Assembly: GCA_003162475.1 (NCBI GenBank)
Contig: PMOI01000016.1
Location: 267,629-331,628, forward strand
DNA length: 64,000 bases
Source: Acidimicrobiaceae bacterium
GTDB lineage: Bacteria; Actinomycetota; Acidimicrobiia; Acidimicrobiales; RAAP-2
Direction: 5' to 3'
Below, in pieces: positions 13,971 through 43,492 of the stretch; within the stretch, counting starts at the first letter, position 1, and the number at the start of each line of letters is the position of its first letter. The position numbers and the translations under genes were made by a program. The notes under the pieces were generated by a model. The model saw only the letters and a program-made list of their open reading frames with translations. It had not been told where the DNA came from and did no database searches.

Positions 13971-15728
<1,758 letters not shown>

Positions 15729-15761
15729 TTACAGCAGCAGTTCGCTCTGGCCAGAAGTCAC
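15729..15761 (-). CDS. leuA leader peptide VTSGQSELLL
   Basis: GTG ACT TCT GGC CAG AGC GAA CTG CTG CTG TAA; three consecutive Leu codons before the stop; TAGGAT -10 six nt upstream (15768-15773) and TGGACA -35 (15790-15795) with a 16-nt spacer. Confidence 0.85.
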   Translation of the reverse strand: MTSGQSELLL

Positions 15762-15823
15762 GCCTCCATCCTACCTCTACGCGATGAAATGTCCAGGGGG
15801 TCGGAGCACTAACCTTTACATTC

Positions 15824-39256: not shown

Positions 39257-40291
39257 CTAGTCGGTGTCGCCGCCAGAGATCTCGGAGACCTTCTGCTTGC
39301 CCGCCGAGACGAAGGGCATCATCTCACGAAGTTCTGCGCCGATCTTCTCGATTGGGTGACGCTTGCCGGCGTCACGAAGTTCGCGGTAGCGCGGGCGCCC
39401 GATCTCGTTCTCCAGGATCCACTCGGCGGCGAAGGTGCCGTCTTGGATCTCACCCAGGATCTTCTTCATCTCGACCTTGACCTGGTCATTGATGACGCGA
39501 GGTCCGCGGGTCAAGTCACCGTACTCGGCCGTGTCCGACACGCTGTAGCGCATGCCGGTGATGCCCTCTTCGTACATCAGGTCCACGATGAGCTTCAACT
39601 CGTGCAGGCACTCAAAGTACGCGCTCTCGGGCTGATAGCCCGCTTCGACGAGCGTCTCGTAGCCCGCGCGCACGAGGGCCGTGACCCCGCCGCACAAGAC
39701 GACCTGCTCACCGAAGAGGTCCGTCTCGGTCTCTTCGGAGAACGTCGTCTCGAGCACCCCGGCGCGCGTCGCGCCGATGCCGTCGGCGTAGGCCAAGGCG
39801 ATGTCGTGGGCGTGACCCGTGGCGTCTTGTTCGACGGCGATGAGCGACGGCACGCCTCCACCTTCGAGGTAGGTGCGGCGCACGAGGTGACCAGGTCCCT
39901 TGGGCGCGACCATGGCGACGTCGACGTCACTCGGTGGCTTGATCAGGTCGAAGCGGATGTTGAAGCCGTGCGCGAAGAGCAGGCACTTGCCGGTCGTGAG
40001 GTAGGGCGCGATGTCGGCGTCGTAAGTGCGCTTCTGTTCGGTGTCCGGAACGAGCACCATGATGACGTCGGCTTCGGCGCACGCGTCGGCGATGGTGAGA
40101 ACACGCAGTCCGGCCTCTTCGGCCTTTTCCACGGATGGCGACTCCATGCGTAAACCAACGCGTACGTCGTAGCCGCTGTCGTGCAGGTTCAACGCGTGCG
40201 CGTGGCCCTGCGAGCCGTAACCCAAGATGGCGATCTTTTTCGCCTTCAGGAGTTCGGGCTTGGCGTCTTTTTGGTAGTACATCGTAGTCAT
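39257..40291 (-). CDS. ilvC: Ketol-acid reductoisomerase
   Basis: [83 protein letters not shown]. Confidence 0.97.
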
Positions 40292-40326: not shown

Positions 40327-40866
40327 CTAGGCCGTGGCCGTCTGAACAAGTCTAGGGAGCGCGACGCGACCCGTACGCTGCAATTCCACACCGGAGAAGA
40401 CCTCCAGGGCCTTCTCGAGCTGATCGCACGCGCCGGGCGTGCCGGCCAACATCACGGTCACCGACGTGGCGTTCACGTCGACGATCGAAGCGCCCGTGTT
40501 GGTGGCGACGTCGAGGACGTCGCCGCGATTGGCGTTGTCGACGCTCAGTGTCGCGAGCAGGAGTTCGCGCTCCAAGGCGTCACGCGGGGCGAGGTCCTTG
40601 ATCGCCACGACGTTCACGAGTTTGTCCAACTGACCCACGATCTGTTCCAAGGGCGCGGACTCGGCGTCGACGACGATGGTGACCCTGGAAAATTGAGCGT
40701 TCCCCTCGGCGGGCGCCACGGCGAGGGAGTAGATGTTAAATCCGCGTCTCGCGAAGAGTCCCGCGATGCGCGCGAGCACGCCCGCCTTGTTCTCCACCAA
40801 CACCGACAGGATGTGGTGACGGACGGGGGTGCGATCGGTGACGCCGAGGAAGGGCTCGGGGGTCAT
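40327..40866 (-). CDS. ilvN: Acetolactate synthase small subunit
   Basis: HHILSVLVENKAGVLARIAGLFARRGFNIYSLAVAPAE, QLDKLVNVVAIKDL. Confidence 0.95.
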   Translation of the reverse strand: MTPEPFLGVTDRTPVRHHILSVLVENKAGVLARIAGLFARRGFNIYSLAVAPAEGNAQFSRVTIVVDAESAPLEQIVGQLDKLVNVVAIKDLAPRDALERELLLATLSVDNANRGDVLDVATNTGASIVDVNATSVTVMLAGTPGACDQLEKALEVFSGVELQRTGRVALPRLVQTATA

Positions 40867-42578
40867 TGGGCGCCTCCTCGAAGCAGCGGGTGCACGAGAA
40901 TGTCGTCGTTACTCGCGCCGGCCGCCACCATTGGAAAGACCTTCTCCGACGAGTCCGTTCGAAAGTCGATGACGACGGGGACGTCGTTGATCTGATTAGC
41001 CTGGTCGATCACCTCGTGCATCTCCTTCAAGTTCGTCGCGCGAAGTCCCACGCACCCCATGGCCTCGGCCCACTTCACGTAGTCGGGCAGGTCGGCGCTG
41101 AGGTAGACCTCGGAGTAGCGCTCCTCGTAGAACATCTCCTGCCACTGACGGACCATGCCGAGATAGGCGTTGTTGAGAATGGCGACCTTGATGGGGATGC
41201 CCTCGGCGCGCGCCGTCACGAGTTCTTGGGCCGTCATCTGGAAGCAACCGTCACCGTCGATGCACCACACCGTCCGATCAGGTCGACCGACCTTGGCGCC
41301 GATGGCCGCAGGGACGCCGAAACCCATCGTGCCCGCGCCGCCCGAGTTCACCCACGTACCGGGCTCTTCGAACTCCCAGAACTGTGAGGCCCACATCTGG
41401 TGCTGGCCAACGCCCGCCGAGACGATGGTTCCCGGCGCTGCTTTTTTGGCGATTGCTTCGATGACGTGTTGGGGACGCAGCGGACCCTCGGTCGTTGGTT
41501 CGTCGTAGACGAGCGGGTAGCGCTCTTGCCAGGTACGAATCTCCTTCCACCAGACGTCGAGGTTCTGCGGTGACGCCTTCGCGGCCTCGAGCGCCTGAAG
41601 GGCCGAAGCGACGTTGGTCTGCAGGGCGACGTCGGCGCGGCGGACCTTATTGAACTCGGCCTTGTCGATGTCGACGTGGATGATCTTGGCGTTCGCGGCG
41701 AACGAAGAGACCTGTCCGGTGACGCGGTCGTCGAAACGCGCGCCCAGCGAGATCAGCAGATCGGACTTTTGAATGGCCGTCACCGCGCTGTACATCCCGT
41801 GCATGCCGGGCATGCCGAGGTGTTGGTCGTGCGAATCGGGAAAGGCGCCGCGCGCCATCAACGTCGTGACGACGGGCATCTTGGTTCGCTCGGCAAAGGC
41901 GAGGAGATCTTGGTGAGCCCGAGACTTGAGGGTGCCGCCGCCCACGTAGAGCACGGGGCGTTCGGACTGACTGATCAGTTCGACGGCGCGCGCCACGGCG
42001 TCCTGGTCGATGTCGATTTCAGGGTGATAGCCCGGCAGATCCAGCTCTTCAATCGACTCGGGGTACCACCACTCCATGGTCGACTGCGAGATGTCCTTGG
42101 GCAGGTCGATGAGCACCGGTCCGGGGCGACCGGTCGTGGCGAGATAGAAGGCCGCCGCGACGGCGCGAGGAATCTCGTGCGCGGATTGGATCAAGAAGTT
42201 GTGCTTGGTGATGCCCATGGTGATCCCCGTGATGTCGCACTCCTGGAAGGCGTCCGAGCCGATCGACGCGGTCGCGACCTGTCCCGTGATGACGACGAGT
42301 GGCGTCGAGTCCATGTGCGCGTTGGCGATCGGCGTGACGATGTTGGTAGCGCCAGGGCCGCTCGTCACCATCGCGACGCCGGCCTTACCGGTTGCGAGTG
42401 CGTAACCCTCGGCCATGTGGCCAGCTCCCTGTTCGTGACGCACGAGGATGTGGCGGATCGAGGAGTCGAGAATCGGGTCGTAGACGGGCAGAATGGCCCC
42501 ACCGGGCAGGCCGAAGATGGTGTCGACGCCCTCTTGTTCGAGGCTCTTGATGAGTGCTTGCGCTCCGGTGAGTTGCAC
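40863..42578 (-). CDS. ilvB: Acetolactate synthase large subunit
   Basis: TGAQALIKSLEQEGVDTIFGLPGGAILPVYD, HEQGAGHMAEGYALATGKAGVAMVTSGPGATN, WCIDGDGCFQMTAQEL. Confidence 0.97.
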   Translation of the reverse strand: MQLTGAQALIKSLEQEGVDTIFGLPGGAILPVYDPILDSSIRHILVRHEQGAGHMAEGYALATGKAGVAMVTSGPGATNIVTPIANAHMDSTPLVVITGQVATASIGSDAFQECDITGITMGITKHNFLIQSAHEIPRAVAAAFYLATTGRPGPVLIDLPKDISQSTMEWWYPESIEELDLPGYHPEIDIDQDAVARAVELISQSERPVLYVGGGTLKSRAHQDLLAFAERTKMPVVTTLMARGAFPDSHDQHLGMPGMHGMYSAVTAIQKSDLLISLGARFDDRVTGQVSSFAANAKIIHVDIDKAEFNKVRRADVALQTNVASALQALEAAKASPQNLDVWWKEIRTWQERYPLVYDEPTTEGPLRPQHVIEAIAKKAAPGTIVSAGVGQHQMWASQFWEFEEPGTWVNSGGAGTMGFGVPAAIGAKVGRPDRTVWCIDGDGCFQMTAQELVTARAEGIPIKVAILNNAYLGMVRQWQEMFYEERYSEVYLSADLPDYVKWAEAMGCVGLRATNLKEMHEVIDQANQINDVPVVIDFRTDSSEKVFPMVAAGASNDDILVHPLLRGGAQ

Positions 42579-42602
42579 AATGCTCCTTTGATGTTAGATA
42601 AG

Positions 42603-42631
42603 AAAAAAGGCCTCCCTTTTTTGGGAGGCCT
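42603..42631 (-). terminator. Intrinsic terminator in the ilvB leader (putative attenuator)
   Basis: Minus-strand GGCCTCCC-AAAAAA-GGGAGGCC-TTTTTT, between the leader peptide and the ilvB RBS. Confidence 0.92.
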
Positions 42632-42653
42632 CCGGTGTACGTAAATCGCGTGA

Positions 42654-42704
42654 CTACCGGCGCCGGGCGCCTACTACTACCAGAATCTCGAGTTGCGTGG
42701 TCAC
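42654..42704 (-). CDS. ilvB leader peptide VTTQLEILVVVGARRR
   Basis: GTG ACC ACG CAA CTC GAG ATT CTG GTA GTA GTA GGC GCC CGG CGC CGG TAG; I-L-V-V-V run; TAGACT six nt upstream (plus 42711-42716). Confidence 0.88.
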   Translation of the reverse strand: MTTQLEILVVVGARRR

Positions 42705-42933
42705 CTCTCCAGTCTAAACACAGAACGACGCGATGCACAACAGTTCTGACGCGTCGTGACCGCACCCTGTCCGGCTCCCTGGGCTCGACGAGCGAACTTT
42801 TCCAATACTCCTGGGGTGTACCGAGGAGTAAACGACGTCAGCGTCTTCGCACGTTCGCTCAACGTCGGCTGGAAGTCTCCGATGGTTGCAGATTGGCTGA
42901 GGGATGGCGGCGCCCCACTTCCCCTCGCTGAGT

Positions 42934-43218
42934 TCAAGAATGAACGCGGTCGCCACGGTGTCGAATCGCCGTCACGTTGACCGTACGAGCGTCACGATCT
43001 ATGAGATAGAGGATCCGATAGTCCCCGCGCCGAGCCGAATACGCGGGCGCCAACGACGCCCCGAGTGCCGTGCCCACCCGACGAGGATCGTCGAGCAAGG
43101 CGCCGGTGATGAATTCGAACGCGGCGGCGGCCATCTTCTTCGTGAACTGCTCGGTGAGGGCGTGGGCGGCCGGAACCGCGACGAGTAGTCGGTAGCGAGT
43201 CTTATTTGAGGTTGACAC
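42934..43218 (-). CDS. RelE/ParE family toxin
   Basis: RYRLLVAVPAAHALTEQF, LGASLAPAYSARRGDYRILYLIDRDARTVNVTAIRHRGDRVHS. Confidence 0.88.
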   Translation of the reverse strand: MSTSNKTRYRLLVAVPAAHALTEQFTKKMAAAAFEFITGALLDDPRRVGTALGASLAPAYSARRGDYRILYLIDRDARTVNVTAIRHRGDRVHS

Positions 43219-43492
43219 GCCGGCCAGCTCGGTCCATGGCGAGTGCTAACTGCTCTGCGTCCAACGTTTCGCCCGTACTGAGCGCCCGCTGTCCCTCGAC
43301 GTGTGAGCGCAGGAGGTTCGCCACGGAAAGGACGGCGATGGTCTCTCGCATCGCGTCGAAGTCGTCAACGCCGATGAGAACGGCGGCCCGGCGCCCGTTC
43401 TTGGTGATTTCCGTTCGTTCGTGGGTCGTGATGGCTTCGTCGATGAGTTTCGAGAGATTCGCCCTGGCATCCGCCACGGGAATGGTGTTCAT
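43202..43492 (-). CDS. Phd/YefM family antitoxin
   Basis: MNTIPVADARANLSKLIDEAITTHERTEITKNGRRAAVLIGVDDFDAMRETIAVL; overlaps the toxin by 17 nt. Confidence 0.9.
   Translation of the reverse strand: MNTIPVADARANLSKLIDEAITTHERTEITKNGRRAAVLIGVDDFDAMRETIAVLSVANLLRSHVEGQRALSTGETLDAEQLALAMDRAGRRVNLK

Follow-up and report, generated by a model that had tools for sequence, protein, structure and literature searches.

What is a short open reading frame rich in codons for branched-chain amino acids (BCAAs), closely followed by an intrinsic terminator, doing directly ahead of the acetolactate synthase genes of an Acidimicrobiaceae bacterium? In the window, by which we mean the whole 64,000-nt stretch of DNA analysed, the minus strand carries this leader, ilvB, ilvN and ilvC in that order (Table 1), with 23 nt between the TAG of the leader ORF and the terminator and 24 nt between the end of the terminator and ilvB. 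The terminator has a GC-rich stem of 8 bp, an A6 loop and a T6 tract (-21.2 kcal/mol upon folding), and its stem grows to 11 bp if pairing between the flanking GGA and the T tract is included. A first-pass annotation of this DNA had suggested that ilvBNC is attenuated by means of the BCAA-rich leader peptide; its coordinates and sequence for the leader turned out to be exact to the base when read and translated directly, and the proposal as such is strongly supported by the comparisons described below, from which we infer the mechanism. What it did not name is an antiterminator, which is needed because an upstream ORF (uORF) plus a terminator without one is not an attenuator; a candidate that co-varies among relatives has now been identified. 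The sequences make it very probable that ilvBNC is controlled at this locus by a leaderless, ribosome-mediated transcription attenuator.

Table 1. Features of the ilvB leader locus, its surroundings and the leuA locus in the window
Feature	Position	Strand	Sequence or description	Basis
Probable -35 element	42735-42740	minus	TTGTGC, 18 nt ahead of -10	sequence reading
-10 element	42711-42716	minus	TAGACT	sequence reading
Spacer between -10 and GTG	42710-42705	minus	GGAGAG, 6 nt	sequence reading
Leader ORF (uORF)	42654-42704	minus	GTG to TAG, 16 codons, VTTQLEILVVVGARRR then stop	translation
Leader ORF, nucleotides from GTG to TAG		minus	GTGACCACGCAACTCGAGATTCTGGTAGTAGTAGGCGCCCGGCGCCGGTAG	sequence reading
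Control codons, inside leader ORF	42686-42672	minus	ATT CTG GTA GTA GTA	
Predicted antiterminator 5' arm	42656-42664	minus	GGC 42664-42662 and CCGGT 42660-42656	folds, arm-swap permutation, pair table
Predicted antiterminator 3' arm	42627-42636	minus	ACCGG 42636-42632 and GCC 42629-42627	folds, arm-swap permutation, pair table
Intrinsic terminator	42603-42630	minus	GGCCTCCC 42630-42623, AAAAAA 42622-42617, GGGAGGCC 42616-42609, TTTTTT 42608-42603	
ilvB Shine-Dalgarno sequence	42583-42589	minus	AAAGGAG	sequence reading
ilvB	40863-42578	minus	acetolactate synthase large subunit, 571 aa, GTG start at 42578	identity from relatives
ilvN	40327-40866	minus	acetolactate synthase small subunit	NCBIfam TIGR00119
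ilvC	39257-40291	minus	ketol-acid reductoisomerase	NCBIfam TIGR00465
ilvD remnant	42749-42862	minus	last 38 codons, 76% identical to relative L005	
ParE-family toxin and Phd/YefM antitoxin genes	42934-43221, 43202-43492	minus	beside ilvD remnant	
leuA leader	15672-15780	minus	VTSGQSELLL, three CTG codons, with terminator	sequence reading
leuA	13971-15695			

Could such an arrangement be fortuitous? When both strands of the window were scanned neutrally for short ORFs containing a run of Ile, Leu or Val (ILV) codons, with a stop no more than 75 nt from an intrinsic terminator, the ilvB leader ORF was the sole match at runs of at least four; at runs of at least three it was joined by the leuA leader and one other, longer ORF, and three shuffled windows gave no match at runs of at least five. 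Upstream regions of ilvB were then gathered from named genomes and from others at the level of genus, family, class and phylum. The first-pass annotation had proposed looking for the leader ahead of related ilvB genes, and there it was in 88 of the 90 genus loci fetched, as was the terminator; the remaining two, which are unreadable, represent one genome with N at this place. In the closest relative (L005, fen_803) the leader seemed at first to be missing, but its assembly has a run of N at the site. After duplicates and one odd locus had been dropped, 68 distinct genus leaders were left. The ORF is in frame in every one of them, starting with GTG (66) or ATG (2), ending with TAG (66) or TAA (2) and comprising 12-18 codons (15-17 in 66/68), and the distance from its stop to the terminator core CCTCCC is 22-26 nt in 67/68 leaders and 32 nt in L018. 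Conservation of this kind effectively rules out a chance origin of the ilvB leader. Outside the genus, a BCAA uORF with a terminator was found in 97 of 170 ilvB upstream regions from Acidimicrobiia and other Actinomycetota (0-2 after shuffling); most of these are from Acidimicrobiia, and their hairpins differ in detail.

The odd locus (L290, genome G424) was excluded from the genus counts because its attenuator resembles the type found in other families. It is assigned to the same genus, with an ilvB that is ~80% identical, and carries the leader MIPTRLLLVLRT and the terminator GACCTCCCC, both of the other-family type; an exchange of attenuator and gene is conceivable, as is a mixed bin. The sequences closest to the ilvB product come from metagenome-assembled Acidimicrobiaceae, and many have isolate names that point to fen, bog or palsa samples; on this evidence the 2.79-Mb draft genome that includes the window is a member of class Acidimicrobiia of the Actinomycetota. 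Four loci (L079, L012, L024 and L029) come from entries titled Bifidobacterium breve or Acidobacteriota/Acidobacteria, yet their ilvB is of the Acidimicrobiia type, and these titles look wrong.

How would ribosomes enter so short an ORF? A Shine-Dalgarno-like purine run occurs within the 12 nt upstream of the start codon in only 3 of the 68 leaders. Instead, a -10-like hexamer ends ~6-7 nt ahead of the start codon genus-wide, position -7 from the start codon being T in 87% of the 68 leaders, and TTG stands near -35 in 64/68. Outside the genus, too, the interval from the end of a -10-like hexamer to an in-frame start shows a strong preference for 6-10 nt. As the 6 nt that follow the end of the -10 element in the window lead up to the start codon, the 5' end of the transcript is expected at the GTG or immediately beside it; judged by its spacing, TANNNT-6-GTG should be a promoter from which transcription starts at the initiation codon, making the ORF leaderless. 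Leaderless ORFs of this type are common in Actinomycetota.

The second requirement is a structure that competes with the terminator. When the RNA segment that begins at the ORF end and stops midway through the terminator is folded, in the window as well as in relatives, GGC is predicted to pair with GCC, and CCGGT with ACCGG, so that the 5' arm covers the final ORF codons and reaches one base into the stop codon. The GCC has two possible partners, the GGC of the antiterminator and the GGC in GGGAGGCC of the terminator, and because it is at the same time part of the terminator 5' arm, the two predicted structures are mutually exclusive. Among sequences compared in the main register, the outer pairs are G-C in 57/58, G-C in 43/58 and C-G in 58/58, and in all 68 leaders the fold predicted before the terminator 3' arm exists ties the ORF-end arm to two or more bases of the terminator 5' arm. 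Own-arm duplexes reach -15.8 kcal/mol, as against -14.4 (sd 0.26) when arms are permuted among leaders (35 distinct arm combinations), and none of 20,000 permutations was as good, a figure inflated by kinship, as related sequences are not independent. Apart from that figure, double changes in the arms hold as evidence for the predicted pairing, namely CTGGT/ACCAG in L090, CCAG/CTGG in L272, GGCCTCG/CGAGGCC in L016, GGCCTCGGTA/TACCGAGGCC in L029 and GCCTCT/AGAGGC in L020. Moreover, in 16/16 sequences shown, the terminator is the predicted fold of the RNA not covered by a ribosome placed at the stop. The stability of the antiterminator region relative to shuffles is modest (mean z -1.1), L019 fits the antiterminator poorly, and the minimum-energy fold of the window itself is a mix of the proposed pairing and a shifted one. 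The register of the pairing indeed shifts between species, and to this shift we attribute both that RNAalifold returned no structure as a single consensus fold of all leaders and that column covariation (APC-corrected mutual information) clearly recovered a terminator pair but not the antiterminator; per-sequence folds and the arm-swap test were used in place of the consensus fold.

It is worth considering how these parts might work together. Transcription would begin at the GTG or beside it, with a ribosome loading directly on the 5' end and trailing the polymerase. Given an ample supply of charged Val-, Leu- and Ile-tRNAs, the ribosome would proceed to the TAG and cover the 3' end of the ORF, blocking GGC-CCGGT; the GGCCTCCC/GGGAGGCC hairpin would then form, and an RNA of ~100 nt would end at the T tract. 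When charged tRNA is scarce, by contrast, the ribosome would stall on ATT-CTG-GTA-GTA(-GTA) and leave GGC-CCGGT free to pair with ACCGG-GCC, which would remove the GCC from the terminator stem and allow readthrough into ilvBNC. A ribosome may be taken to cover ~12 nt past its A-site codon. With this footprint, a stall at ATT, CTG or either of the first two GTA codons would free GGC-CCGGT, a stall at the third GTA would free CCGGT, and a ribosome that had reached the stop would cover both parts of the 5' arm to about +12. For comparison, a 26-nt footprint centred on the codon is taken in the M. tuberculosis work (PMC13236596). The stall geometry so modelled would be the logic of classical attenuation.

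Which amino acids would be sensed? Ile, Leu or Val account for 367 of the 1031 residues in the 68 genus leaders, and their codons sit at a fixed place, about 15-30 nt ahead of the stop. The first-pass annotation had read the leader as multivalent for Ile, Leu and Val; this applies to the genome of the window but does not extend to the genus, in which Val occurs in 68/68 leaders, Leu in 65/68 and Ile in 51/68 (it is missing in 17). For this reason valine, by way of rare GTA codons, appears from the comparison to be the core invariant signal: 169 of 209 Val codons in the leaders are GTA (81%), as opposed to 54 of 1013 (5%) in 22 ORFs of the window, and Ile is likewise encoded by ATT in 50/56 cases versus 95/471 in the same ORFs. 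In the non-genus leaders GTA is also the commonest Val codon (149/262). Rare codons for the signal amino acids are likely to create a sensitive stall site; the GTA bias could also stem in part from RNA constraint. When shifted by one base, the GTA repeat of the window (GTAGTAGTA, 42680-42672 on the minus strand) reads TAG TAG TAG, i.e. three stops. Most of the genus retains this repeat, and the preference for GTA extends across the class; the reason may lie in the rarity of the codon, in guarding of the frame or in constraint on the RNA.

Need the codons matter at all, or could the terminator answer to translation of the leader as such, or to the general translation/(p)ppGpp state, instead of to stalling on BCAA codons? 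Codon swaps in the ilvB leader of Streptomyces coelicolor were without regulatory effect (PMC1262725), and by analogy the anatomy of an attenuator would not guarantee a codon response; leaderless initiation itself could be regulated, and the longest ILV run falls to only two in some genus leaders. Such control would, however, leave without reason both the strong GTA/ATT rare-codon bias and the place of the BCAA codons, where a stall would free the antiterminator arm, and in Corynebacterium glutamicum the exchange of all three leader valines for Ala abolished the valine response (PMC11857589). We consider it unlikely. A riboswitch binding a ligand such as ppGpp or a BCAA, with the short ORF being incidental, is far less probable still: ppGpp riboswitches do control some ilvB genes, but a Corynebacterium motif proved unresponsive to ppGpp (PMC10272879), the frame is kept in 68/68 leaders, no aptamer-like core is conserved beyond the ORF end and the hairpins, and no Rfam family matches in the window at gathering score (the best sub-threshold hit being Phe_leader with 21.4 bits versus 55). 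That the ORF encodes a functional small protein, with the terminator only insulating ilvB from the upstream gene, is just as improbable, for although the ORF is conserved in frame, its N-terminal half varies freely, the kept parts are the BCAA codons and the C-terminal part overlapping the antiterminator arm, and insulation would not call for a separately promoted leader ORF lying downstream of the preceding gene and ahead of the terminator.

The attenuator favoured here has well-studied counterparts. Terminators accompanying ilvB leaders were predicted in 2005 for Corynebacterium, Mycobacterium and Streptomyces (PMC1262725), and the closest likeness is found in the 'fast' attenuator of the C. 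glutamicum ilvBNC operon, for which a three-hairpin model has been proposed (PMC11857589; Morbach 2000). Its leader MTIIRLVVVTARRLP begins one nucleotide from the RNA 5' end, loss of the start codon lowers expression by 80%, terminator mutants raise ilvBN expression, and a GCC common to antiterminator and terminator has a GGC partner on either side (PMC11857589). The operon, the GTA control codons and the GGC-GCC pairing shared with the terminator are thus the same in both, LVVVxARR is common to MTIIRLVVVTARRLP and VTTQLEILVVVGARRR, and the leaderless start, apparent there from a 5' end one nucleotide off, is indicated here by promoter spacing. The two differ in that the terminator lies ~180 nt from ilvB in C. 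glutamicum as opposed to 24 nt here, and perhaps also in the anti-antiterminator-like (H1) hairpin, the GGCGC/GCGCC hairpin predicted in the window being small and its sequence not kept throughout the genus; the C. glutamicum attenuator is backed by experiment, that of Acidimicrobiia by comparison. A leaderless ilvL has been reported in Streptomyces lividans (PMC8079986), and the ilvL of S. lividans/coelicolor (MRTRILVLGKRVG; PMC8079986) is similarly a leaderless BCAA ORF followed by a terminator before ilvBHC, but with a single Val codon and, in S. coelicolor, the insensitivity to codon replacement mentioned above. In M. tuberculosis, where a leader RNA of ~120 nt terminates early ahead of ilvB1 and ribosomes occupy the uORF, ilvB1NC likewise possesses a BCAA uORF (LVVI, with GUA taken as the regulatory codon), a terminator and an antiterminator; its leader is 166 nt long, and its support is directly experimental whereas ours is comparative (PMC13236596). 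The Corynebacterium ilvB-II motif, compared by its description, also combines a uORF of 15-17 codons, an AUG or GUG start and BCAA codons with a terminator stem and U tract, but its alternative pairing engages the 3' shoulder of the terminator stem rather than the 5' shoulder as here (PMC10272879). By its leaderless start (from spacing), its control codons and its shared GCC, the present element seems to match the C. glutamicum type.

A search of the open literature found no paper linking attenuation to Acidimicrobiia, and the ilvBNC attenuator is apparently undescribed in this class. A classical device known from Corynebacterium, Mycobacterium and Streptomyces is hereby extended to a deep, mostly uncultured class, in which ~68 aligned natural variants display its constraints (rare GTA codons, spacing between stop and terminator, the shared GCC) and also supply sequences for an RNA family missing from Rfam. 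Is leaderless initiation, then, part of the mechanism? The variant set could help to decide. It is a tentative thought, and rather doubtful, that a leaderless, GTA-tuned ilvB attenuator with a shared GCC is ancestral to Actinomycetota, from Corynebacterium to Acidimicrobiia and down to LVVVxARR, and that loading at the 5' end is built into the device as a means of timing and is not simply incidental to leaderless genomes.

Two neighbouring matters deserve mention. The leuA leader reads TAGGAT-GGAGGC-GTGACTTCTGGCCAGAGCGAACTGCTGCTGTAA, again with a 6-nt spacer, and is followed by two hairpins with a T tract after the second; the leader and its TANNNT-6-GTG pattern are conserved in most genus loci read. 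The leuA leaders of other Actinobacteria have been described without a clear terminator (PMC1262725, PMC8079986), unlike the one here. The ilvB and leuA leaders had been taken for a coordinated pair; the grammar is common to both, as claimed, but coordination does not follow from it, the shared spacing being a general signature of leaderless starts that does not itself show joint control. As for ilvD, in relatives the full-length gene immediately precedes the ilvB leader and has the same orientation (this holds for 52 of the 53 genus loci with ilvD in the flank examined), and ilvD-like genes elsewhere in the draft genome of the window were found only at 38-40% identity. Next to the ilvB leader of the window lies the ilvD remnant; the gene was apparently lost here, and a toxin-antitoxin pair now adjoins the break.
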